Assembly: GCA_018064525.1 (NCBI GenBank)
Contig: JAGHVB010000006.1
Location: 53,254 to 117,253 of the forward strand
DNA length: 64,000 bases
Direction of reading: 5' to 3'
Source of the DNA: Candidatus Treponema merdequi
GTDB taxonomy: Bacteria; Spirochaetota; Spirochaetia; Treponematales; Treponemataceae
This document shows positions 2,425-62,545 of the stretch, in pieces. Position 1 is the stretch's first letter. Each line of letters starts with the position of its first letter. A model generated the notes under the pieces. That model did no database searches and was not told the DNA's origin. It saw only the letters and a program-made list of their open reading frames with translations. The position numbers and the translations under genes were made by a program.

Positions 2425-3945
2425 ATGAAAAAAATTTCTTTTTTGATTCTGTCATTATTATTAATATTTGCAGGATGTACACAGCCGGGTAATTCTGGAA
2501 ATCCACCTGTAATATTTCCAAAATTTACTGTGACATATTCAACTGAATTTGGAACAACACCTGCTGCAATCTATGTTGAACCAGGTCACATTTTAACAGA
2601 TAAAGACCTTCCATCTTTACCAGAAACAGAAGACCGTTATTTTACTGGCTGGGATGTAAAACCAGGAACTAAAATTACCGAAAACATAACAATCACAGCA
2701 AGCTGGAAAAAATTTGCCTGCATTAAACCTTTTACTGCAGCAAATGCAAATGATTTATTGCTGACATTTTTTGAAGTTACAAAAGTTGAAGATTTACCAT
2801 TTTATTCTGATTTAGGCAGCGGAAAAATCAATGAGATTTACTTTACAAAAGAAGCAGTGCCTTCAACTTCAACATACAAGCATGATTATAAAACAAGTGA
2901 TGAAAACATTACTTTTACTGTAAGTTTTGAACAAAGCAACGGAAAAAATAGAATATACGTTTCTGGAAACGGAGATCGAATTTATATCAAAAACTGCCGC
3001 AAGTTATTTTACTGCTTTGATAACACTATTTGTAATTATGAATGGATTGATTTAGAAAACTTATATACTGCAAAAGTAATAGATATGAACTATTTATTTG
3101 GAGGCTGTTCTTCTCTTACTACTTTAAATATTTCAAACTTCGATACTTCAAATGTTACAGATATGAGCTATATGTTCAGTGGATGTACAAAGCTTAAATC
3201 TATAGATTTGAGTAATTTTAATACTTCTAATGTTACAGATATGAGCTTTATGTTTAGTTGTTGTGAAAAATTAAGTTCATTAGATTTAAGCAGTTTTAAT
3301 ACATCAAAAGTTACTGATATGAAGGAAATGTTTCTAATATGTAAATCACTTACATCTGTAAATCTTACAAGTTTTGATACTTCAAACGTTACAGATATGT
3401 CTTATATGTTTAGTAATTGTACTTCTCTTACTGCTTTAGATTTTTCAAGCTTTAATACTTCAAATGTTTCTGATATGCAATATATGTTTAATTACTGTCA
3501 GAAACTGGAGACATTGGATTTAAGTAAATTTAATACTTCTAACGTAAAGACAATGAACGATATGATATATGAATGTGAAGGTTTAAAATCTATAAACATC
3601 AGTTCATTCAATACTGAAAAAGTAAAGTCTATGGCACGTATGTTATATACTTGTAAAAACCTTGAAACTGTGGATATAAGCAGTTTTAATTTTGTTAATG
3701 TAATGGATTTAACAAATTTCTTTACCGGTTGTGAGAAATTAAAAACAATTTACGCATCTCCTGATTTGGCTATACCTGATTCTTGTAAAACTTCGGCTAT
3801 GTTTGTTATTTGCAAAAATCTAACAGGCGGCGCAGGAACAAAATATTCTGATGCCGAAATATCAGATCCAGAAAACTATAATACTGCCGTTTACGCCCGC
3901 ATCGACGGCGGTCCGTCAAAACCGGGATATTTTACAGCAAAGTAA
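2425..3945 (+). CDS. Surface lipoprotein with InlB-type repeat and DUF285 (BspA-like) repeats
   Basis: A 506-residue lipoprotein; the lipobox is LIFAGC with Cys at about residue 18. After a short linker comes an InlB B-repeat-like domain (roughly residues 33-93; FTVTYSTEFG...GWDV...ITASW), then at least seven units of about 23 residues with the pattern NVTDMSYMFSGCxxLxxLDLSxFNTS, the DUF285 (PF03382) form of leucine-rich surface repeat. Such proteins are common in host-associated spirochaetes, Mycoplasma and gut Firmicutes and are thought to mediate adhesion; that role is inferred here. GAGAGAGGG precedes the start. The repeats are near identical at the protein level but diverged in DNA. Confidence 0.85.
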   Translation: MKKISFLILSLLLIFAGCTQPGNSGNPPVIFPKFTVTYSTEFGTTPAAIYVEPGHILTDKDLPSLPETEDRYFTGWDVKPGTKITENITITASWKKFACIKPFTAANANDLLLTFFEVTKVEDLPFYSDLGSGKINEIYFTKEAVPSTSTYKHDYKTSDENITFTVSFEQSNGKNRIYVSGNGDRIYIKNCRKLFYCFDNTICNYEWIDLENLYTAKVIDMNYLFGGCSSLTTLNISNFDTSNVTDMSYMFSGCTKLKSIDLSNFNTSNVTDMSFMFSCCEKLSSLDLSSFNTSKVTDMKEMFLICKSLTSVNLTSFDTSNVTDMSYMFSNCTSLTALDFSSFNTSNVSDMQYMFNYCQKLETLDLSKFNTSNVKTMNDMIYECEGLKSINISSFNTEKVKSMARMLYTCKNLETVDISSFNFVNVMDLTNFFTGCEKLKTIYASPDLAIPDSCKTSAMFVICKNLTGGAGTKYSDAEISDPENYNTAVYARIDGGPSKPGYFTAK

Positions 3946-21855: not shown

Positions 21856-24800
21856 ATGTCAGGATTAAACCCAAATGAAGATACTCGTGTAAAATTACCA
21901 GCCTTATTTCATTGTGTACGATTGGGTTATAACTATATTTCATTAAAAAATTATCTTAAAGAAGGAAAGCTGGTAGATTCAGAAACAAATATATTTCTGG
22001 ATATTTTTAAAGAGTCTATTTCTCAAATAAATAATACTTCCTATGACAAAGATTCTGCAGTTCTTCTTTTGGAATTCCTTTCCCAATCACTTGGAACACA
22101 AACAGTTGTAAATAAACTTTCAGATTCCCTCGACAATGAAGACCTTGGCCGTAAGTTTTACAACTTCCTCATAAATGGAATTGAAGTTGACGGCTATCCA
22201 AATAAAATCAAACTTATTGATTTTGAGAATCCAGATAATAACACTTACAATGTTGTTACCGAACTCACTTATCAAAAACATGATTGCGAAGATAACTTCC
22301 GTCCAGACATTACACTTTTGATAAATGGTATTCCTCTTGTTTTTATAGAAGTAAAAAAGCCAAATAATAAAGAAGGTATGATTGCTGAGTATAATCGTAT
22401 GATTAAACGTCAGCAGAACAAGACCTTCCGAAAGTTCATCAACATTACTCAGCTGATGATTTTCTCAAATAACATGGAATACGAAGACGATGATTTAGAT
22501 AATCTCTTTGGTGCATTCTATGCAACTGCCAGTTATTCAAAGCCATTCTTCAATCACTTCCGTGAAGAAGATGAAGATTTCAAACATGAATCATCTCCTG
22601 CTTTTGCAGCTCTTAGTACGGACTTTGGTCCAACAGAAGATTTAATACTTAAAGACAACAATCATCCTGAAATTAAGACACAAGGATATTATCTTAAAGA
22701 CCGTGAACCTTTCACTCCAACAAACAGAATCTTAACTTCACTTTGTAATCGTGAAAGACTTCTGTTCCTTCTTCAATATGGCTTAGCCTATGTAGAACGA
22801 ACAGATAAAAACGGAATCAAACATCTGGAAAAACACATCATGCGTTATCCTCAGATGTTTGCTACAAAAGCAATTCATAAACGAATTGAAGATGCCCGTA
22901 TTCAGCAGATTCCACAGGTAAAAGGAATTATCTGGCACACACAGGGCTCTGGGAAAACAGCCCTTGCTTACTTCGTAACCAAGTTCTTAAAAGATTACTA
23001 TGCGAAACTTCACAAGCCTGTTCGTTTCTTTTTCATTGTAGACCGCCTCGACCTTATGACACAGGCAAAGAATGAATTCATTGCCCGTGGACTTTCTGTT
23101 GACCTTGTAAACTCTAAAAACGAATTTGTTTCCAACATTTCAAAAGTATCTAAATCCGTAAACGGACAAGACACCATTACTGTTGTAAACATCCAGAAGT
23201 TCAGTGAAGAATCGGTTGCAACGGCAAATGATTACGATATCGATGTTCAGCGAGTTTACTTTATGGACGAAGCTCACCGAAGCTATAATCCAACAGGTTC
23301 ATTCTTAGCAAATCTTTTTAATTCAGATAAGAATGCAGTTTTGATTGCTCTTACAGGAACACCGCTTCTTAATGCAAAAACAACAGATGCAACAGCTTCA
23401 AAGAAAACTGTACATTTTAATTCAAAAGACATTTTCGGCGGTTACATCCACAAATACTGGTATAACAATTCCATCAAAGACGGCTACACAGTCCGACTTA
23501 TTCGTGAAGCAATTGAAACTTCCTACAAAACAAAACTCCGTTCCGTACTTGATGAACTTGAAACCATAAAAGGCAGCATTCAGAAAAAAGACCTTTTTGC
23601 ACATCCAAAATATGTTGCTCCACTTACAGAATACATTGTGGGAGATTTCTTAAAATCAAAAATTGCTTTAGGCGATGACACAATCGGAGCAATGATTGTT
23701 GCAGATTCCAGCGAACAGGCAAAGGCAATTTATGAAGAACTGCAGAATTATAAGACAATCACAAAAGCACTTATCCTTCACGATGTTGATGATAAAGAAA
23801 CCCGTGAACAGGAACGTGATGACTTTAAGGCTGGAAAGATAGATTTCCTTGTAGTCTACAATATGCTTCTTACAGGTTTTGATGCTCCACGCTTAAAGAA
23901 AATGTATCTTGGCCGTGTAGTAAAAGACCACAGTTTGCTTCAGACACTTACCCGAGTAAACAGACCTTACAAAACATTCCATTACGGTTACATTGTAGAC
24001 TTTGCAGATATCCGTAAAGAATTTGATAAGGCGAATCAGGAATACTACAACGAACTTAAAGAAGAACTTGGCGATGAGTTTGAAAACTACAGCCAGCTTT
24101 TCTATGATGCAGAAGAGATTGAAAAACGTCTTATAGAAATTAAAGACATTCTTTTTGATTACGATACAAGCGATATAGAAGCCTTTTCTCAGAGTATTGG
24201 AGTTTTGGATAAACCAGAACTTACAAAAATCCGACAGGCTTTGGAAGATTATAAAGTCCTCTACAATGTAGCCCGCCTGCAGGGTTTTGATGAAATTACG
24301 CAGAAGATTGATATAAATACAGTAAAGTCTCTGGCAAGCGAAGTTGAACGCACAATATTCAACAAGAATTTCAGTTCAAGCCTTGTAGATTCAGCAGATA
24401 CACAAGCACTGTTAAATACCGCATTGGATGAAATAAAATTCTCCTTCACAAAAATTGGCGAAGAAGAACTTACCATTGCCGACAAATGGCAGGAAACTGC
24501 AGAAAAAACAAGAAAAGCCTTTACCAGAAACCTAGACCCAAAAGATCCTGAATACATTTCGTTATTCGAGGAACTTAAACGGGTCATGGCAAAAAAGAAT
24601 ATTGAAGAACTTACTGCCGATGACATGCAGCAGTCAATCAAAGAACTGGAAGAACTCAAAAAGAAAATCGACCAGAAAAATCAGAAAGACCAGACACTTT
24701 GCAATAAGTACAACGGAGATGCCAAATTCATGCGAATCCACAAGCGAATGAAAGAAACACCACCGCCACTTATTCCAAGCGACACATTGCTTCAGCAGGT

Positions 24801-36089: not shown

Positions 36090-37568
36090 ATGAAAAAGGG
36101 GTTTGTATTTTTTTGGGCGTTGTTGTTTTATAGGATGGTGTTTGCAGATGTTCAGATTAAATATAATGGTGGAAGTAATTATTCTTTAATCGAGAGAACT
36201 GATCTCAGGCGATATGACAATGGAAAATATACAGGTCTTGTAAGCCGCGAGGTCAGATCGTTTATTGCTGAAACTGAAAATGATGACGGTTCTGTTTTAT
36301 ATGACGGAAACTTTTTTGTTGATGAAGCGACAAAAAGAAATATGGTTTCTGTAAATGACGGACTTAACGAAGCAATTCCATCTGAGTTTAAAATTCTAAA
36401 GGACGGCTCACTCATAATGATCACAGACAACGGTTATCCGTCGTTCCGAAGTTTTCCAACTTACACAGATAAAAAAATTTCTTCTGGTGATAAATGGCAG
36501 GCAAAAGCAACCCGTGCAGTTGATCCTCTCAACAAAGGAATCGTTACAAAAATGCCGATTTATGTTGAATACTGTTATCAGAGTGACTCAACAGTTGAAG
36601 GTGAAGAAGTTTTTGTTTTAACTGCACAATGGGCAACAAGATACGGCGCAAAGTTTTATCTTGACTTTGGCGGTGACAGTGATCTTCTCGAAGCACAAGG
36701 TTCACACAAAGCAACAATTTATGTCAGCAAAAAAACAGGACAGGCACTTGTAATCCGCGATGTGGTTGATGAATATTTTGTTTATTCTGATGGAAATAAA
36801 ATTGCATTCAAAGGTTCTATTGCGCTCTTCACAAAGTTTCCACCGGCTGTGGACAGAGAAAAACTTCTTCCCTCGCTTCAAAGAGTTGCAAGTTTAAATG
36901 GAACTGTTGCGGGCAGCGGAATGGATGATGGTTATGGAACTGTTGCGGGCAGTGGAATGGATGATGGTTACGGAACTGGCGCAGGCAGCGGAATGGATGA
37001 CGGTTACGGAACTGACATGGGCAGTGGAATGGATGATGGTTACGGAACTGTTACGGATACTGGAATTGATGGCAGTTACGGAACTGGTGTTTCTGAAGGC
37101 CAGAGTTCGGGTTCTGACAGACATAATTCACTTGAAGAAAAAATTCCGGCTGCGGATCTTGCAGCTCTTACTTTGCCTGATAATAATTCTGATGTACTTC
37201 CGCCTGTTACAGTTGAAGAAACTAGTGCTGGAATCAAGCTGTCACTCAGACTTCAGTTTAAGTCTGATTCTGCGGAACTTTTGAATGATGAAAAGTCACG
37301 GCTTGATGCGATTGCGGACTGTATGAAAGCTTCTGGTGCGGCAATGTTTTTAGTAGAAGGACATACTGCGTCTACAGGAAATGAAAAAGGAGAAATGGAA
37401 CTTTCGAAAGACCGTGCCCATGCGATAGCTTTTGAGCTTTCAAAACGTGGAATTGATTCGGGCTGTTTTGTCGTAAAAGGCAGCGGAAGTCATAAACCGG
37501 TAGCAGAAAATTCCACAAAAGCCGGAATGGCAAAAAACCGCCGCGTAGAAATCACGATTCTCGAATAA
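36090..37568 (+). CDS. Exported OmpA-family protein with glycine-rich repeat linker
   Basis: A 492-residue protein with a signal peptide (ending FADVQ). Residues about 22-265 form a beta-rich domain of unknown family; 271-330 are five 12-residue repeats (GTVAGSGMDDGY type); about 375-492 is an OmpA C-terminal peptidoglycan-binding domain (LQFKSDSAELL ... VEGHTASTG ... LSKDRAHAIAFELSKRGI ... KNRRVEITI). It should anchor in peptidoglycan with the N-terminal part in the periplasm or outer membrane. GGGGGG precedes the start. The linker is encoded by near-identical 36-bp repeats and could vary in length between strains. Confidence 0.85.
   Translation: MKKGFVFFWALLFYRMVFADVQIKYNGGSNYSLIERTDLRRYDNGKYTGLVSREVRSFIAETENDDGSVLYDGNFFVDEATKRNMVSVNDGLNEAIPSEFKILKDGSLIMITDNGYPSFRSFPTYTDKKISSGDKWQAKATRAVDPLNKGIVTKMPIYVEYCYQSDSTVEGEEVFVLTAQWATRYGAKFYLDFGGDSDLLEAQGSHKATIYVSKKTGQALVIRDVVDEYFVYSDGNKIAFKGSIALFTKFPPAVDREKLLPSLQRVASLNGTVAGSGMDDGYGTVAGSGMDDGYGTGAGSGMDDGYGTDMGSGMDDGYGTVTDTGIDGSYGTGVSEGQSSGSDRHNSLEEKIPAADLAALTLPDNNSDVLPPVTVEETSAGIKLSLRLQFKSDSAELLNDEKSRLDAIADCMKASGAAMFLVEGHTASTGNEKGEMELSKDRAHAIAFELSKRGIDSGCFVVKGSGSHKPVAENSTKAGMAKNRRVEITILE
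36900..37079 (+). repeat. Five tandem 36-bp units inside the OmpA-like gene
   Basis: Units start at 36900, 36936, 36972, 37008 and 37044; the first four are nearly identical, the fifth diverged (GTVTDTGIDGSY), and a partial sixth follows. The unit length keeps the frame, so copy-number change would lengthen or shorten the linker only. Confidence 0.9.
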
Positions 37569-55450: not shown

Positions 55451-55867
55451 TTACTCATTTATCCTCATTACCATACCGTATCCGTTGGCTTCTTCTCTTT
55501 TTGTAAATCCCAGTTTTTCGTAAAAGCCTGATTTTCCTGGAGCCGCCATAAGACTGAAATTCAAAAAATCAGTCACAGCGACATTTTCTTTTACAAGTTG
55601 AATCAAACGTTCGACAATCTTTTTACCAATTCCTTTTCCCTGAGCTTCCGGCGCCACAATAATATCCGCAAGATAAGCAGTATATCCAAAATCAAAAAGC
55701 ACACGCCCCATTCCCACAGTTTTTCCATTGATTTTTGCACGGACTTTAAATGCGGAATTCTTAATCAAATTTTCAATCTGAGTATCCGTAAGTTTTGTCC
55801 ATGAAGTTGTGTTGCGTAAATCTTTGTATTCTTCAAAAGTCAAATTATCTTCTATTATGATATCCAT
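55451..55867 (-). CDS. GNAT acetyltransferase 1
   Basis: A 138-residue GNAT with the acetyl-CoA loop VAPEAQGKGIGKKIVERL (motif A, R/Q-x2-G-x-G/A) near residue 80 and the closing MAAPGKSGFYEKLGFTKR. The start at 55867 is set by GGAGAAA; the open frame upstream runs into the next gene in another frame. The substrate is unknown. First of a series of GNATs in this run. Confidence 0.82.
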   Translation of the reverse strand: MDIIIEDNLTFEEYKDLRNTTSWTKLTDTQIENLIKNSAFKVRAKINGKTVGMGRVLFDFGYTAYLADIIVAPEAQGKGIGKKIVERLIQLVKENVAVTDFLNFSLMAAPGKSGFYEKLGFTKREEANGYGMVMRINE

Positions 55868-55899
55868 TTTATTTCTCCGTTCAAGATTCAAACTTTTTA

Positions 55900-56544
55900 T
55901 TAAGATACAACCTGCACTACAATAATCACTGCATAATAAATCACAGAAATCAAATTTGTCCAACCGCCAGAAATAAACTTTCCAGCCATTCCAGGAATCT
56001 TTGCAACAATCGGTTTTAAAAGCATTAAAACGCCGGGAGTTACTATTGCACACCATCTTGGAAAAACAGTTGCTCCAGAGGCAATCATTATGAGCATAAG
56101 ACCAAAGCCGATTCCTTCACCAATGTATGTAAAAATCATCAGCTTTGAAAAATATTTTACAATAACATCACGATTTTCTTTCTGTTCAGTTTTTCCGAAC
56201 AATCCTAAATATGGAAAATGAGTGTGAAATGCGCCGCCATAAATAATTCCAAAACAATTCATAAGAAATGCCACAAGAGCAACATTTTTCCATACCACCA
56301 TCTCTTGATTTACTGCCAGCACAAGATGATAAAATCCCACACAATAAACAAAAGCTGCAAAAGGACCAATCAATCCGCCGGCGCAAAATCGCTTTACCGG
56401 CAATCCGCTCATAACTTCTGCAATATAATCCATAGCATCAGTATCCTTTTCTCTTTTAGCTGCTGATTTTGATAAATATAAAAGCTGATCCCCCAACAAC
56501 ATTAAAAGTGAACCAACAAAACCGATTAAACAAAAGTAAAACAT
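55900..56544 (-). CDS. Integral membrane protein (DUF6796-like)
   Basis: A 214-residue protein with about six transmembrane segments. Conserved-looking features are LGDQLLYLSK near the N-terminus, GPFAAFVYCVGFYHL, GGAFHTHFPYLG and WTNLISVIYYAVI. It recalls the DUF6796 family by memory only. The function is unknown. AGGAG precedes the ATG. It lies between GNAT genes in one probable operon, 10 bp after GNAT 2. Confidence 0.5.
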   Translation of the reverse strand: MFYFCLIGFVGSLLMLLGDQLLYLSKSAAKREKDTDAMDYIAEVMSGLPVKRFCAGGLIGPFAAFVYCVGFYHLVLAVNQEMVVWKNVALVAFLMNCFGIIYGGAFHTHFPYLGLFGKTEQKENRDVIVKYFSKLMIFTYIGEGIGFGLMLIMIASGATVFPRWCAIVTPGVLMLLKPIVAKIPGMAGKFISGGWTNLISVIYYAVIIVVQVVS

Positions 56545-56554
56545 GTATACACTC

Positions 56555-57019
56555 CTAAAACTTCATCACCATTTCTTTATAATCACTTTCCGAATCTACA
56601 AAACCTGCCTTTTTGTAAACAGGATATCCGTCTTCGGTGGCTTTCAGCTGAATTTTATCAAGGCCTTTTTCTTTTGCACCTTCAATCAGAAGCTTCATAA
56701 GATTCAGGCACAATCCCTGGCGGCGATATTCCGGGCGAGTATAAACACTCAAAACTTCACCAACCAATCCATTAATAAAATGAGGATTTGCCGGTTTTTC
56801 TATAATCTGAAGAAGAACTACTGCAGCAACAGTTTTTCCATCCCGAGCCACAAATCCAAAACAATCCTGATTCAGATGTTTTTCAAAATAAAGCGGCAGG
56901 GATTTTTTCATACTCTGCACATCTTCATCTGAAACTGTTTTCTGATCTTCCAGAATATAATAAATCCGTAATTCTGTCAGTTGATTTATATCATTTTTTG
57001 TTGTGTATCCAAATTCCAT
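56555..57019 (-). CDS. GNAT acetyltransferase 2
   Basis: A 154-residue GNAT; motif A is VYTRPEYRRQGLCLNLMKLLIEGA near residue 92 and the C-terminal strand is YKKAGFVDSESDYKEM. AAAGGAA lies before the ATG, overlapping the stop region of GNAT 3, so the two are co-translated. Substrate unknown. Confidence 0.85.
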   Translation of the reverse strand: MEFGYTTKNDINQLTELRIYYILEDQKTVSDEDVQSMKKSLPLYFEKHLNQDCFGFVARDGKTVAAVVLLQIIEKPANPHFINGLVGEVLSVYTRPEYRRQGLCLNLMKLLIEGAKEKGLDKIQLKATEDGYPVYKKAGFVDSESDYKEMVMKF

Positions 57020-57020
57020 T

Positions 57021-57422
57021 TTATAATTCCTTTATCAGATGAAACTTTTTATTACCCGTTGGGATATTTTCCAGTTTACCAATTTCTCGATACCCATGCT
57101 TTTTATAAAACTCAGGTGCCTGCCAGCTCATAGTGTCGACATGAACTGAATGACAACCGCGCCGAACCGCTTCTTCTTCTGCGGCTTTCAACAACTTTGA
57201 ACCAATTCCTGTACGACGATAATTTTCATCCACCCAGAGAATATCCAAGTGCATCCATCCCCAGTATGTACCGCCCAAAATCCCTGCAATCACATTTCCA
57301 TTATTATCATATTCCACAATATTCAAAAGTTCATGATTATCCGGACCAACTGCCTTATCGTTAAATTCTTTGAGCGCATTATTTACAAAATTTATCTCAT
57401 CATCAGTTGGATTAAAATTCAT
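57021..57422 (-). CDS. GNAT acetyltransferase 3
   Basis: A 133-residue GNAT; motif A is WVDENYRRTGIGSKLLKAAEEEA and the end is WQAPEFYKKHGYREIGKLEN. AGAGGAAG precedes the ATG. It ends 1 bp before GNAT 2 and starts 39 bp after GNAT 4. The pattern is of the small-molecule GNAT type; substrate unknown. Confidence 0.87.
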   Translation of the reverse strand: MNFNPTDDEINFVNNALKEFNDKAVGPDNHELLNIVEYDNNGNVIAGILGGTYWGWMHLDILWVDENYRRTGIGSKLLKAAEEEAVRRGCHSVHVDTMSWQAPEFYKKHGYREIGKLENIPTGNKKFHLIKEL

Positions 57423-57461
57423 ATTCTTCCTCTTAAATCACCGCGGTATCGGCGAACATCG

Positions 57462-58229
57462 TTATTTATTCATTTCATCAACAACATCTGCAGGTTTGAT
57501 TGTCATTTCTACCCACGAAGGAATAAATCCTGCTTTAATTGCATTTCGTGCCGAACGGATATTTGACCACGCACAGCAATAAAAAGGCACTTTTCCGCGT
57601 TCAAGAATTTCTACTGCAAGATTACTTGTAACACTTGCGGCAATTCCCTGACGGCGATATTCAGGCAGAACATCAACACCAATCTGCCACATATTCTGAG
57701 CATCGGCAGAGCAGGCTGCAAAACCAACAAGTTTTTCGCCATCATAAGCACCAACTCCAAGACAGTCAAGTTCCTTCCGTTTTTCGCAAAGAGCATTGCT
57801 CCATTCTGGCAGGTACAAATCAGCAAAATCTTCCTTACCTAAAACCCGCAGTTCGTAATTGCATTCCAGCCGCTTAAGTTTATTTACATCAGGCAAAAAA
57901 TATTCTGCCATAAAACAAACTTTCTGTCCCAAAGGAGCAAGCCGTTCGCCAAGCCAGTTCATATTCGGCGTTTCAAAACAATGATACCATTCAAACTTCC
58001 CAAGATATTCCCGAATAATTTCCCGATTTTCAGCAGAAGTTCCCGCAACAATATTGTTTCCATAAGAAATAAGATTTGCATTTATTGGAAGCGAAAGATA
58101 TTTGCACGCATTCGGACAAAGTTTGAAATCTACAAAAACGTTAGCGGCTTTTTCAAAATCGTCCGCCGTCGCACCAAGATTCCACGCCGACTGCTGCATT
58201 GCAATCTGTAAAATTTCCTTATTTGTCAT
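57462..58229 (-). CDS. GNAT acetyltransferase 4
   Basis: A 255-residue protein with an N-terminal partner domain (about 1-130) and a C-terminal GNAT domain with VLPEYRRQGIAASVTSNLAVEIL near residue 200 and WSNIRSARNAIKAGFIPSW. The start at 58229 follows GGGGAAAAG and overlaps the end of GNAT 5 by 11 bp, so translation is coupled. Substrate unknown. Confidence 0.85.
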   Translation of the reverse strand: MTNKEILQIAMQQSAWNLGATADDFEKAANVFVDFKLCPNACKYLSLPINANLISYGNNIVAGTSAENREIIREYLGKFEWYHCFETPNMNWLGERLAPLGQKVCFMAEYFLPDVNKLKRLECNYELRVLGKEDFADLYLPEWSNALCEKRKELDCLGVGAYDGEKLVGFAACSADAQNMWQIGVDVLPEYRRQGIAASVTSNLAVEILERGKVPFYCCAWSNIRSARNAIKAGFIPSWVEMTIKPADVVDEMNK

Positions 58230-58674
58230 CTTTTCCCCACGCCCATGCAAACGCAACCGTATCAGTATATTCGTAAAATCCGTTTTTCTTGTAAAAATTA
58301 TATGCCGGCACAGTTCGTTCAGTAAGAAGATAAATTGCCTTTAAATCATTTGCTTTAAGATAATCTTCAATCTGATGTAAAAACTCGGTTCCAATTCCCT
58401 GATGCTGCTTTTCAGTTTTTACGCACAATTCGTTGATAATATATTCAGTTCCGCGGTACCAGTGCTTGATGTAACCCATTGAAAGCGCAACCATTTGCTC
58501 CCCGTCAAAAAGCGCAAGTGTAAGTGAGTTAACGTTTCCGCATAAATCGGTGATGTAAGCATCAAGCTGAGCCGCATCGCTCCAGTCATCGTTCCAAGGT
58601 TCTTTTGTAAAAACATCCGCAAAAAACGGTTTGATAATTTTTTTGTCAGCGATTGTAAGTTTTTTGAGTTTCAT
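58219..58674 (-). CDS. GNAT acetyltransferase 5
   Basis: A 151-residue GNAT (CVKTEKQHQGIGTEFLHQIEDYL; PAYNFYKKNGFYEYTD). It is the first gene of the GNAT run, behind a promoter that ends 6 nt before its ATG and has no ribosome site, so a leaderless start is likely. The fold with INELCVKTEKQHQG recalls GNATs acting on aminoglycosides or polyamines, but no specific match is claimed. Confidence 0.85.
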   Translation of the reverse strand: MKLKKLTIADKKIIKPFFADVFTKEPWNDDWSDAAQLDAYITDLCGNVNSLTLALFDGEQMVALSMGYIKHWYRGTEYIINELCVKTEKQHQGIGTEFLHQIEDYLKANDLKAIYLLTERTVPAYNFYKKNGFYEYTDTVAFAWAWGKDDK

Positions 58675-58680
58675 AATTTA

Positions 58681-58725
58681 TTTATACACGAAAAATTTTC
58701 AAAGGAAATAAAGTTATAGTTTATT
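58681..58725 (-). promoter_or_regulatory. Activator-type promoter of the GNAT run
   Basis: Minus-strand TATAAA (58681-58686) with no good -35; instead the dyad AATAAAGTTATAGTTTATT (58707-58725, read on the plus strand) is centred 35 bp upstream of the -10 end, about -41.5 from a start at the ATG. The same dyad and spacing occur before the racemase gene. Confidence 0.6.
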
Positions 58726-59206
58726 TCTTATACCAGCACCTGATTCTACCTTCTTGTAAAACATGACCTTCAAGCGCTTTATTAAAATCCTTAAATCTCG
58801 CTGATGATGGTAAATCCAATTCTGAATCCAATGCATAAACTATAAAATGGTAATAATGCTTTGAACGGAAAGGTGGCTTTGGTCCACGGTATTTATGGCG
58901 TCCGTAACCAACACCCTGAACTGCATTAAATGGTGCCGTAATTTTTTCACCAGCAGGAATACCTTGTGGAATAACATTTGTCGCAGGAATATTCCAGCAA
59001 ATCCAGTGGCAGTATTCTTTTGAAAGTGGCATATCTTCATCACAAAATGCAATTGCAAGGTATTTTGCATCCGGAGAAAGATTTTCAATCCTAAGTTCCG
59101 GGGAAAAATCTTCGGCAAAACCTGTAAACTGAACCGGTAATTCTCCGTCATTTGTAAAACTTGGACTAGTGATAATTAAAGCCAATGATAATAAAGCCTG
59201 TACCAT
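58721..59206 (-). CDS. PEBP / YbhB-like protein
   Basis: A 161-residue protein of the phosphatidylethanolamine-binding (Raf kinase inhibitor-like) family: ITSPSFTNDGELPVQFT, CDEDMP, YCHWICWNIPA, GYGRHKYRGPKPPF and HYYHFIVYALD carry the ligand-pocket residues. The bacterial role is unclear. The N-terminus is short and hydrophobic (MVQALLSLALII) but has no clear cleavage site. AAAGGAG lies before the ATG. Its last codons overlap the dyad of the GNAT promoter. Confidence 0.88.
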   Translation of the reverse strand: MVQALLSLALIITSPSFTNDGELPVQFTGFAEDFSPELRIENLSPDAKYLAIAFCDEDMPLSKEYCHWICWNIPATNVIPQGIPAGEKITAPFNAVQGVGYGRHKYRGPKPPFRSKHYYHFIVYALDSELDLPSSARFKDFNKALEGHVLQEGRIRCWYKK

Positions 59207-59250
59207 AAAAACTCCTTTTGGGTAATTTGACCAAATTTTATCATCATTTT

Positions 59251-59276
59251 TTTATAGAGTAATTGTCATATGACAA
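59251..59276 (-). promoter_or_regulatory. Palindrome at the PEBP promoter
   Basis: The perfect 14-bp palindrome TTGTCATATGACAA (59263-59276) lies 6 bp upstream of TATAAA (59251-59256, minus strand). It has the architecture of an FNR/CRP-type half-site pair (TTGTC-N4-GACAA) but sits in the -35 region rather than at -41.5. Confidence 0.45.
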
Positions 59277-59288
59277 GAAATGAGTTTT

Positions 59289-59861
59289 CTATAATTCACG
59301 CTTAATTCTGCTTAATGAGCTTGGAGTAATTCCAAGATACGAAGCAATATGTTCCTGTTTTGCCCGTCGGACAATTTCCGGGTTTTCTTGTGCAAATTCC
59401 AAATATCGATCTTTAGCTTCTTTATTTGCAAAGTCGTAGGATTTTTTATCTACACTTAAAAATGCCTTGTTTACAAGTTCAGAAACCTTTTCCTGCACTG
59501 CGGTAGAAGAGGAAGCCAAAATTTTGATATCAGAAGTTTTAATTTTGGCAGTTACAGTTGGCTCTAAAGTTTCAACAAAAAATGGTGAAGGCTTTTCCGA
59601 AAGATAACTGTAAAATCCGCACCATTCATTTTCTTTTGCAAAACACTTTGTAATTTCAGTGCCATTTTCATCGATGTAATAAGCACGGACAAGTCCTTGT
59701 AAAACAAGTTGCATTGAATCAGCCACATCGCCCATCCGAATTATCTGTGCGCCAGCTTTATATTCACAAAATGAAAATAAAGACGCACATTGTAAAGCAG
59801 TTTCCTTATCAAGAGAAAGTTTTGATTGAAGATAAGTTTGCAAAGAAGTCTGACTATTCAC
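59289..59861 (-). CDS. Crp/Fnr-family transcriptional regulator
   Basis: A 190-residue regulator: cyclic-nucleotide-binding-type domain (about 20-120; GAQIIRMGDVADSMQLVLQGLVRAYYIDENGTE) and a C-terminal helix-turn-helix (KQEHIASYLGITPSSLSRIKREL). There are no Fnr-type cysteine cluster and no obvious cAMP arginine-serine pair, so the signal is unknown. It overlaps the racemase gene by 8 bp and so shares the promoter at 60.6 kb, which carries the same dyad as the GNAT promoter: an autoregulatory loop is plausible. Confidence 0.88.
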   Translation of the reverse strand: MNSQTSLQTYLQSKLSLDKETALQCASLFSFCEYKAGAQIIRMGDVADSMQLVLQGLVRAYYIDENGTEITKCFAKENEWCGFYSYLSEKPSPFFVETLEPTVTAKIKTSDIKILASSSTAVQEKVSELVNKAFLSVDKKSYDFANKEAKDRYLEFAQENPEIVRRAKQEHIASYLGITPSSLSRIKREL

Positions 59862-60546
59862 TAATTATTTCCACGAGTTTATCAATATGAATATCCATAA
59901 TGTCCAAAGGTTCAACCGGGCAGTTATTTTTATTCAACGCCAACGGCAATTCTGTACAACCCAAAACTACCGCTTCAATTCCGTTTTCAGCCTTCATTTT
60001 GTTGATAACATTTACTAAATCGGCAACGGATTCAGGTTTTACAACGCCATATTCAAGTTCATTCGCAATATGATTATTTACAATTTCGCGATCAGGTTTT
60101 GAAGGAACAACAACTTCAATTCCTTTTTCAACAAAAGCTTTGCTAAGATAATCTTTTTCCATTGTAAAAATTGTTCCCAAAAGCCCGACTTTTTTATAGC
60201 CTTTTTTCTGTGCATATTCACTTGCCGCTTCTGGAATGCTGATAAAAGGCACATTTACAAACGGCTTAAGTTTTTCAAAAACAACATGCATAGTTGCCGC
60301 AGTAAGAGCAACAATTTCTGCACCATTTTTTTCAAGATTTTTCAGCCGTTCACCTAAATATTCAGAAAGCTCGTCGTATTTTTCATTTTTTACTAAATCA
60401 AGAGCTGTGAATAAATTAACACTTTCAATTGCCAGTTCTGGAAACGATTTTCCGCCAGATTTTTCGTTATAGCGACGATTAATTTCCTTATAATAAACCA
60501 AAGTCGATTCTGGACCAGTGCCGCCAATCAATCCAAGTTTTTTCAT
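59854..60546 (-). CDS. Aspartate/glutamate racemase family protein
   Basis: A 230-residue PLP-independent racemase. GLIGGTGPEST opens the fold, and the second catalytic Cys is present in VVLGCTELPL near residue 193. At the first catalytic position the sequence is ALTAATMHVVF: where the classical enzyme has Cys and YgeA has Thr, this protein has Ala, so two-base racemisation may be replaced by an isomerase or another activity. AAGGTGG precedes the ATG. First gene of the racemase-regulator operon. Confidence 0.82.
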   Translation of the reverse strand: MKKLGLIGGTGPESTLVYYKEINRRYNEKSGGKSFPELAIESVNLFTALDLVKNEKYDELSEYLGERLKNLEKNGAEIVALTAATMHVVFEKLKPFVNVPFISIPEAASEYAQKKGYKKVGLLGTIFTMEKDYLSKAFVEKGIEVVVPSKPDREIVNNHIANELEYGVVKPESVADLVNVINKMKAENGIEAVVLGCTELPLALNKNNCPVEPLDIMDIHIDKLVEIISE

Positions 60547-60565
60547 TTGTCCACCTTATCAGTCA

Positions 60566-60610
60566 ATTATACACGAAAAACCGGAAATCAGAATAAAGTT
60601 GTAGTTTATT
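60566..60610 (-). promoter_or_regulatory. Activator-type promoter of the racemase-regulator operon
   Basis: Minus-strand TATAAT (60566-60571) with the dyad AATAAAGTTGTAGTTTATT (60592-60610) centred exactly 35 bp upstream of its end, as at the GNAT promoter; the two dyads differ in one base. TTTTTCGTG before the -10 is also shared. Confidence 0.6.
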
Positions 60611-60633
60611 GCTGGTGACGTAATTTTTTCCCG

Positions 60634-61062
60634 CTAGTACATCTTCAAAAATCGGATTTGAGTTTTTTCGTTGTCGTAACCTTGCGAACGGTAAAATTCA
60701 TGAGCACCGTGACGAGTTCCGCCGGAGTTTAAACGCATTCCAATGCAGCCTTTTTCTTTGGACCAATTTTCTGCCGCACGTAAAAGTTCGCTGGCAAATC
60801 CCTGACGACGAAATTCTTCTTTTACTGCAAGGCCAAGAATATTTCCAACGGGACCAAAATACAGATTTGAATAAACTTCAACGTGAATAAATCCTGCGGT
60901 AACGCCATCTACATCGGCAACAAAAACTGCTTCTCGTTCCGGCGGCAATTTTGAAAGATTCGCGCTAACAAAATCTTCCTGTGCATCTTCATAGCCTAAG
61001 CCTTTTCGAATAAGTTCGAGTAAATCTGATAAATCATTTTCGGTTGCGTGTCTAATTTGCAT
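60634..61062 (-). CDS. GNAT acetyltransferase 6
   Basis: A 142-residue GNAT; motif A is AVKEEFRRQGFASELLRAAENW near residue 78 and the C-terminal end is GAHEFYRSQGYDNEKTQIRF. GAGG precedes the ATG and TATAAT is found about 30 bp upstream. It is probably transcribed on its own. Substrate unknown. Confidence 0.85.
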   Translation of the reverse strand: MQIRHATENDLSDLLELIRKGLGYEDAQEDFVSANLSKLPPEREAVFVADVDGVTAGFIHVEVYSNLYFGPVGNILGLAVKEEFRRQGFASELLRAAENWSKEKGCIGMRLNSGGTRHGAHEFYRSQGYDNEKTQIRFLKMY

Positions 61063-61094: not shown

Positions 61095-61913
61095 TTAAAT
61101 TAAATAATTTCTTGCGATTTTTTCTACTTTTTTTGAACTTAATGGGGAGGCGCTGGTTTCCATTGAAATAATTAAATTATCGCCGGGGAAAAATCCGGCA
61201 TTTTCGTAGGCGGCCATTTTTTCTACGGCGGAAGTTGCATATTCTTGGGCGTCCATCATTCCTAAATGTTCCCAGGCATATTCTTTATGGGTGCGCAAAT
61301 TCAGGCAGTAAAAATCCGGATGAACGGTAAACTTTTGTAATTTTACGGGAAACTCATAGCGGTACGGAATGCCCATGCGAAACAATGTGTCGGCAATTAT
61401 TACTTCTGATTTTGAGCGGACGCGTTCTCCTTTTGCTGTAGAAAGTGTTGGTGCATTTTCGTTGAAACTTTTGTGCGGATATTCTAAGGCCAGCCAATTT
61501 TCTGCGAATTGTTTATCTGGCATGGTAATTGGGTTTACGAGCTGGCGGCGGCTGGCGGAAAGTTCTTGGTAAACTTTGTCAATTTGATTTTTCTGTAAAT
61601 AATTAAGCGTTGTATTCAGGTGATAAAGCTCCAGCTCCAGATTCGGCAGGATTTTTTCATCGTAATCTTTTTGTGCAAGCGACTTTATTAATTTTTGATT
61701 TGTTTTGGGGATGTATTTTCTTGAGTTTTCAGTTTCGTCGCTCTTTTGGTAATATTGCACAGTGTGATTACAGGTGCTTGTCCACAGTTTTCCTAGTGGA
61801 GCCTTTGAAAGCTCTTGTTTTATGCAGGAAATTGCGTGCTCCAGGCTTTGTTTACGGGTTAACAGCTCGGGGATGAGTAAATTAGGCGGTAATTTTTCGA
61901 AGTTATTTTCCAT
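61095..61913 (-). CDS. PD-(D/E)XK-like nuclease-fold protein
   Basis: A 272-residue protein. The N-terminal 130 residues are helical, with Leu/Lys/Gln-rich coiled-coil character. The C-terminal part has RSKSEVIIADTLFRMGIPYRYEFPVKL, FTVHPDFYCLNL and EYAWEHLGMMD: Glu, HPD-F and E-x-x with Gly where active enzymes have Lys (EHLG), the order of a PD-(D/E)XK fold with a changed last residue. It may be a diverged nuclease or an inactive DNA-binding relative. GAGGTT precedes the ATG. It is the gene next to the hairpin array. Confidence 0.55.
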   Translation of the reverse strand: MENNFEKLPPNLLIPELLTRKQSLEHAISCIKQELSKAPLGKLWTSTCNHTVQYYQKSDETENSRKYIPKTNQKLIKSLAQKDYDEKILPNLELELYHLNTTLNYLQKNQIDKVYQELSASRRQLVNPITMPDKQFAENWLALEYPHKSFNENAPTLSTAKGERVRSKSEVIIADTLFRMGIPYRYEFPVKLQKFTVHPDFYCLNLRTHKEYAWEHLGMMDAQEYATSAVEKMAAYENAGFFPGDNLIISMETSASPLSSKKVEKIARNYLI

Positions 61914-61933: not shown

Positions 61934-62378
61934 ATTTACGGGTTTAAACATTGACCGTATGGTTTTGAGCCGTAATTTTTCAGGTTTTTCAATGAAAATA
62001 AAGTGCGCATTTTGAAAATTACGGGTTTGGCTGGCGGATGGGGGCGTGTTAACCCGTAATTTTCAGATTTTTTTACAAAAAAGTTTCAGGTTTTCAGAAT
62101 AATTACGGGTGGAGCGTGCAGGGTGCAGTAAAAATCCCGTAATCAGTCAAAAAGATTAAATAAACAGATAAAAAATTACGGTACAAAGAAAAATAACCTC
62201 TCCGTTAAACCGTAATCGTCATAAACACAAAAAAGAATTACGGGTTTAAAAACAGGGGGGGGCAGTCCTAACCCGTAATCGTCAAAAATACAAAAATAAA
62301 AAATAACAAATTACGGCTTACAAATGCAGGGATCAGCTGTAAAACCGTAACAAAACCAAGATTCTCAAAAAATTACGA
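61934..62378. repeat. Array of six hairpin units with helical-turn spacing
   Basis: TTACGG starts at 61936, 62019, 62103, 62176, 62238 and 62311 (a weaker TTACGA at 62373). Each is followed by CCGTAA at 61970, 62054, 62137, 62210, 62273 and 62345, a distance of 34 or 35 bp. Starts are 83, 84, 73, 62, 73 and 62 bp apart, close to 8, 7 and 6 turns of the helix. The arms extend variably and remain complementary (for example ACGGGTTT/TAACCCGT, ACGGT/ACCGT), while loop sequences differ. Spacers are A/T-rich with A-tracts. This is most of the 600 bp gene-free stretch 61914-62513; the remainder shows no ORF. Confidence 0.85.
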
Positions 62379-62439
62379 CTATAAATAAAAAATAATAAAA
62401 AATCTCTCGAACCGTCAAGAAAAAATCACCGGCGCGACC

Positions 62440-62545
62440 CCAGTAAAACGCCGCAACCATCGCAACTGTTGCCACCGCAGTAACAGCCGCAACTTCTGTA
62501 AACCGCCACAACATCAGTAAACTGCCGCAACCGTTGCCACCGCAC
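62440..62545 (-). repeat. 65-bp duplication at the 3' end of the phosphatidyltransferase gene
   Basis: GTTGCCACCGCA occurs at 62468-62479 and 62533-62544, 65 bp apart, with further similarity around both. Read on the minus strand, the upstream copy encodes AVATVAAVY then TGA, and the second, in another frame, encodes AVATVAMVAAFYWGR. The normal C-terminus of the protein may have been displaced by this duplication. Confidence 0.65.

Follow-up and report, generated by a model that had tools for sequence, protein, structure and literature searches.

Background

Repeated protein-binding sites that lie in phase on one helical face are known from partition and iteron arrays (ParB/parS, RepA iterons, handcuffing), where they support a high-order nucleoprotein complex. 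In REPIN-RAYT systems, REP doublets occur with a dedicated Y1 transposase, and RAYTs are thought to help REPINs be copied and kept (PMC3116915). I-Bth0305I is a Vsr-like homing endonuclease of the EDxHD type (PMC3943268). Here we describe a stretch of 64,000 nucleotides from Candidatus Treponema merdequi (GCA_018064525.1, contig JAGHVB010000006.1, positions 53,254 to 117,253; hereafter the window, numbered from its first nucleotide), which contains an array of six inverted repeat pairs, or dyads, next to a gene of a nuclease family. Sequence comparison suggests that the gene encodes a site-specific nuclease which has helix-phased arrays of binding sites of its own and probably forms with them a self-maintaining mobile module, a reading to which we assign a probability of about 0.5.

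The dyad array and its gene

The window array consists of six exact TTACGG-N28/29-CCGTAA pairs between 61936 and 62350. The original prediction had drawn attention to these pairs, and they are far from random, since the mean count of the pattern over 100 shuffles of the window was 0.00. The dyads are located at 61936-61975 (TTACGG-N28-CCGTAA), 62019-62059, 62103-62142, 62176-62215, 62238-62278 and 62311-62350, with start-to-start spacings of 83, 84, 73, 62 and 73 bp, exactly as first read. A sixth spacing of 62 bp had also been listed, but it leads only to a degenerate left half-site, TTACGA (62373-62378), without a good partner. The unit size of 34-35 bp holds as the distance between the starts of the two arms, but not as the length of the dyad, which is 40-41 bp from end to end. 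One extra dyad, with one mismatch in the right hexamer, lies at 61852-61892, 84 bp before dyad 1 and within the 5' coding end of the adjoining gene. Dyads of this mismatch type were present in the first 250 bp of the gene in 4 of 71 arrays (three of them in phase) and in 1 of 142 control windows. One isolated match to the pattern is found elsewhere in the window, at 23982, and CCGCAAC-rich imperfect repeats lie directly past the array (62428-62540). There was no Rfam match in the window.

The adjoining gene, overlooked in the original prediction, is encoded on the minus strand (61095-61913), and the array begins 22 bp upstream of its start. Its 272-residue product has N-terminal helices and a beta-sheet, followed by a C-terminal domain of the Vsr/PD-(D/E)XK type. 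No Pfam or NCBIfam model reaches its cut-off on this protein. It belongs to a family without a name, with 3,697 relatives at E<=0.001, whose C-terminal half carries a nearly invariant Vsr/PD-(D/E)XK-type active site, with conserved E/D/E-H/D residues in a restriction-type fold. The closest named relative is from Candidatus Treponema caballi (67% identity).

Out of 135 relatives found in a genome scan, 80 loci were retained. Arrays were searched de novo as inverted pairs with at least three units within 900-1,200 bp of the gene, and the phase of the spacing was never used. They were detected at 43 of the 80 named loci (38 without five doubtful ones) and at 57 of 70 loci from the genus Treponema, equivalent to 46 of 57 distinct proteins; shuffled flanks gave none. 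Relatives from gut and rumen bacteria, among them Lachnospiraceae, Fibrobacter and Treponema, have arrays of their own with differing half-sites, and the arms vary from case to case (TACGGATAAA, GTCATATAAT, GGCTTATAA, GGCATAGGA and TTCCGTACC, for example). The array is upstream of the gene in 89 of 105 array entries and downstream in 16, and five loci have arrays on both sides. The gene next to the array ties it to a protein, and the design is widespread. A relaxed search with up to two mismatches was run on the loci lacking an array, but its matches were left uncounted because shuffles reach five units. Similarly, a scan of the genus with the 6-bp arms alone matched 137 of 196 genomes, but the reversed-pattern controls were similarly large in many of them. 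At four loci examined by hand (L078, L124, L021 and L030) the arrays flanking the gene have one orientation, and the distance from one to the other (1,071 bp at L078, for example) departs from a whole number of turns by no more than about 2 bp.

The phasing by whole helical turns proposed for the window array extends to the family. Spacings were fitted for 90 of 106 arrays, after 12 duplicate entries for places already covered and four doubtful arrays (L013, L047, L053 and L054) were dropped; spacings above 120 bp were excluded, and related orthologous arrays were retained, so the 90 arrays are not fully independent. The best-fitting period was 10.50 bp and the offset 0.27 bp, and therefore the spacings correspond to whole turns (R 0.857, with a maximum of 0.36 in 1,000 null rounds using a random shift per array). 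The uniform distribution modulo 10.5 that had been named at the outset as evidence against phasing was not seen in these arrays. Spacings fall into classes of 52-55, 61-65, 72-76, 82-86, 92-96 and 104-107 bp, with few at 111-115 bp. Classes are mixed in 39 arrays, where 59 of 66 within-array differences lie no more than 2 bp from a multiple of 10.5 (about 43% expected). In 13 arrays without a gene beside them, hereafter solo arrays, the same is true of all 25 distinct spacings. Chance and tandem duplication were rejected as sources of the spacing because it changes within arrays by whole turns. Such spacing suggests, as the original prediction held, that copies of a protein sit side by side on the same face of the duplex; the centromere, silencer or segregation site put forward there is a possible function.

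Positions 11-18 bp from the dyad axis carry about 1.4-1.7 bits of information, and those inside 7 bp and beyond 22 bp about 0.3-0.5 bits. Two inverted half-sites of about 10 bp lie with their centres 28 bp apart (median of 72 arrays) around an unconserved core. The complementarity of the arms noted originally applies to the invariant half-site but not to the variable arm positions, which change on one side without compensation: same-base double changes numbered 6, 15 and 16, with 27.1, 23.5 and 17.6 expected if the two sides were independent. This is predicted by two protein half-sites on duplex DNA and not by a paired hairpin; what had been taken for a hairpin loop is the unconserved core between the half-sites. 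Hairpin, cruciform and RNA readings were rejected on the lack of a compensatory excess and on a core that evolves like the spacer, although each of the six window units folds somewhat better as RNA than its shuffles (z -1.5 to -2.3).

Half-sites also follow their proteins. Among 57 proteins, half-site similarity increased from 1.4-1.6 at less than 35% protein identity to 12-16 at more than 60%, and the Mantel correlation between the two similarities was 0.28 (rho), the largest of 500 permutations being 0.18. These correlations indicate that a protein and its half-site belong together.

Solo arrays and module turnover

The window genome (2.70 Mb in 87 contigs) harbors a second array, without a gene, in which eight dyads (C2:55656-56269) are spaced by 83, 83, 83, 83, 84, 84 and 74 bp. 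Two isolated dyad matches are present besides the two arrays. There is a second copy of the gene (L123), beside which no array of at least three units was found. Exact matches to the TACGGATAA type occur in 14 of 196 genomes of the genus. Six of these have 3-9 matches and are the same six that have a cognate gene-linked array; the other eight have 1-2. Solo sets of this type were found in genomes G048, G105, G111 and G168. For the GGCTTATAA type, a single dyad, the gene-linked array and solo arrays on four contigs (C4, C22, C39 and C41) are present in G154, and there are three solo arrays in G149; three other genomes without this type have none. The genes on either side of solo arrays are ordinary ones, and the gaps between them may be divergent, convergent or codirectional. 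One solo array of G154 and the gene-linked array there are homologous over 335 bp (74%) and are therefore copies.

Half-sites are the conserved part of the arrays. Between orthologous arrays, identity is 98.7% in half-sites, 82% in cores, 85% in spacers and 81% in flanks. Half-sites have a slight advantage in this comparison because they were located from exact matches in one genome of each pair, the first, and of the ten pairs three have genomes in common. Half-site identity at the argB solo site is 91%, against 46% for cores. Solo arrays are therefore being maintained and not decaying. The motif TYGTTTT occurs in 15 of 17 short spacers of G154 and G149, at a fixed place in the 74-bp steps (L211, L212, L213, L214, L216, L217, L218, L139 and L144). 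The motif is mirrored about the long central gap in 5 of 6 arrays of these genomes that have short spacers to either side of it, which gives whole arrays a two-fold symmetry in these genomes.

Modules and arrays are present in some genomes and absent from others at the same place. Gene and array occupy 1,374 bp in G048, and the same flanks are 14 bp apart in G152. The empty site in G152 lacks any dyad; the module is positioned between genes, with its arrays intact beside the gene. At the corresponding place, L266 (G093:C57, 1164-1331) carries one worn dyad of the G048 type together with a pair of dyads of another type (TCCGATAA…TTATCGGA) that are separated by 74 bp. At the pyrE site, G154 has a solo array of 403 bp where G015 has 11 bp. 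This gap is an insertion hot spot in the genus, with a solo array in two species and nearly nothing in two (L268, L269, L270, L271 and L275, compared with L213 and L272). Five other species have other small genes there, which by eye include antitoxin/PIN-like pairs, ORF6N-like and AAA-ATPase-like genes. Among 14 locus pairs compared, some share gene blocks, at times with the array, without the flanks (L149 with L142, L134, L100 and L111; L132 with L105, for example). We infer that a nuclease helping in the copying and upkeep of arrays would best account for the solo arrays and for modules found in some genomes and missing from others.

The nuclease family

Matches to the gene were found in 65 of 196 Treponema genomes (47 with E below 1e-30), and several genomes hold many copies. 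The C-terminal 120 residues or so are homologous to the candidate defence protein PDC-S68 of PADLOC (E 7e-28; profile positions 1091-1218 of 1221), and the nuclease domain is also related to helicase-linked proteins on plasmids; four family members gave no full-length PADLOC match. The N-terminal half gave only generic helical rows in the VIA listing. Foldseek returned nothing from the PDB at E<=0.001, and two uncharacterised viral proteins from BFVD below E 0.001. None of 72,556 plasmid records covers 80% of the protein, and seven have partial matches. Three phage records match, the best with 76% cover and 31% identity in an unannotated record of 4.2 kb, as do eight viral contigs, which reach at most residues 118-271. 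No full-length member was found on plasmids, annotated phages or viral contigs, and a phage or plasmid vehicle was rejected on this basis.

One full-length copy (L133, G150:C17:87499-88278) has lost catalytic residues (E170Q, D200Q and H216N), and the strict search finds no array beside it; L151, an interrupted copy, also lacks one. This is weak evidence, because other copies without an array look intact.

Within 3.5 kb of 120 loci no neighbour gene recurs, the largest common family being ABC transporters (12 loci). Several small acetyltransferase-like genes, recognised by eye, stand in a row on the minus strand at 55451-61062 of the window, downstream of the nuclease gene. GNAT/NUDIX genes as cargo of the element, hinted at by the window, were rejected since no such family recurs at the 120 loci. 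A CRISPR or TIGR array or an integron was likewise rejected, as no partner gene recurs at these loci. The array partner is not a recognisable Cas or Tas protein either, since neither Pfam nor NCBIfam has a model that matches it at cut-off. The window also has tandem repeats of 78/156 bp (3106-3490) and 36 bp (36900-37086), which probably belong to repeat-containing proteins.

Discussion

Two copies of the protein would bind each dyad, probably reading the half-sites with their more variable N-terminal halves, and their nuclease domains would meet over the core, as happens in other dimeric nucleases whose recognition sites flank the cut. Spacing by whole turns would line the dimers up on one face, and therefore neighbours could be in contact, or a bridge between them could loop out the intervening DNA; adding or losing one turn would be tolerated. 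An array close to the promoter probably limits expression of the gene, and cutting or nicking at the core would be kept in check for most of the time by the array and this autorepression. A cut or nick could lead to the array, or the array with its gene, being copied into new intergenic sites. Judging from sequence, binding of the protein to its cognate array is very probable, and the protein is probably an active nuclease. Its role in spreading or maintaining arrays is more tentative, with a chance slightly under even.

Several observations weigh against a self-maintaining mobile module. Neighbourhoods of the 120 loci contain no transposase or recombinase partner; no target-site duplication was recognised, and no movement was seen within a species. 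The core is constant in length, an outcome that repeated cutting and repair would not favour, and intact target arrays beside an active nuclease gene would need a restraint. No array of at least three units was found within 900-1,200 bp at 37 of the 80 named loci and 13 of the 70 Treponema loci, some of which are short of flank. The half-site correlation is 0.27 for residues 1-60 and 0.22-0.24 for the nuclease, and thus does not separate the reading domain. Flanks are also shared in L142/L134, L149/L095, L136/L122 and L153/L099, so the module is often just inherited, and the block moved between L139 and L144 includes the upstream gene too.

One alternative is a defence or stress nuclease held in reserve, with the array serving as sink and operator: the bound protein would stay inactive and repress its own gene until phage infection or another trigger releases it. 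This would agree with the upstream arrays, whose median distance from the start codon is 81 bp, with the position of the window array 22 bp before the gene start and of one dyad inside the gene, and with the kinship of the domain to the C-terminal part of PDC-S68 and to the helicase-linked plasmid proteins. It is nevertheless unlikely: it leaves unexplained the conserved distant solo arrays, the five loci with arrays on both sides of the gene and the many paralogues with differing half-sites in one genome, and the four members searched had no full-length PADLOC match.

A role in chromosome organisation or segregation is improbable. The protein would then be a factor of nuclease fold that bridges DNA, with the arrays as its few anchor points on the chromosome, as in ParB/parS or MatP/matS, consistent with one-faced phased dyads at few loci per genome, purifying selection on half-sites and, in two genomes, two-fold symmetric arrays with a fixed spacer motif. 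However, the active site is nearly invariant, presence is patchy (the 47 of 196 genomes cited above), a single genome has several unrelated specificities, and no partner ATPase or other recurrent neighbour is found at the 120 loci.

The array may alternatively be no more than an autoregulatory operator that limits its own gene, with solo arrays as debris. The 89 of 105 upstream entries fit this proposal, to which we give similarly poor odds: solo arrays keep both their phase and their half-sites (the argB site above), 16 entries are downstream, 4-10 units exceed the need of an operator, and a consensus scan of the stretch that separates array from gene gives no promoter-like site. In a last alternative the units are transcribed as hairpins or guides in the manner of CRISPR or TIGR arrays. 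This would account for tandem units with a variable middle and for the folding scores, but is very improbable given spacing quantised at 10.5 bp, a core that evolves like spacer, and no compensatory excess, recurrent partner gene or Rfam match in the window.

A family of thousands of relatives, without a name or a Pfam domain, is now tied to a DNA element legible from sequence in its half-site, dyad width and whole-turn spacing. The arrays change length one turn at a time and are thus a natural, evolving test of helical phasing. Should the protein cut between half-sites, each paralogue would already be a dimeric nuclease that has a recognition site to itself, and the pairs of protein and half-site would let the recognition code be worked out. 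The chances are about even that the system is a new class of mobile element or chromosomal system, which would be defined by a one-gene nuclease, one-faced dyad arrays, a one-sided symmetric complex, arrays seeded in trans, radiation into a great many lineages that each have a half-site code of their own, and several independent systems per genome.

Comparison with known systems

The original prediction could name no known element of this design, and we likewise found no description of phased inverted-repeat arrays of this kind in the open-licence literature. No known system examined combines a one-gene nuclease, helix-phased dyad arrays, copies in trans and a site code for each paralogue. Partition and iteron arrays share the phased repeated sites on one helical face. 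Iterons, however, are direct repeats and not inverted dyads, and here the spacing varies by whole turns within one array; unlike in ParABS partition, the protein has a nuclease active site and no ParA-type ATPase neighbour at the 120 loci. Tn7-type transposons also have a restriction-type nuclease fold and repeated protein-binding sites near the gene, but no TnsB/TnsC or other recurrent partner is found at the 120 loci and there are no defined element ends. PDC-S68 is represented by models of about 1,200 residues, whereas here the domain stands alone with a different N-terminal half. Compared with the EDxHD homing endonucleases, the gene lies outside an intron or target gene, the recognition arrays are intact beside it, and the N-terminal part has generic helical matches only.

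REPIN-RAYT appears to be the nearest system in function. It shares with our loci the inverted intergenic doublets, a dedicated single-gene partner of nuclease type near some of them, genomic copies elsewhere and a match between each type of repeat and its protein; the copies at a distance from the gene lie in extragenic space here too. The enzymes differ, with a Vsr/PD-(D/E)XK-like fold here in place of a tyrosine HUH transposase, and so do the repeats, since REPINs are many scattered doublets and our loci have a handful of whole-turn arrays without hairpin pairing. If the protein does spread its arrays, the system would be a bacterial counterpart of REPIN-RAYT built on a different enzyme.
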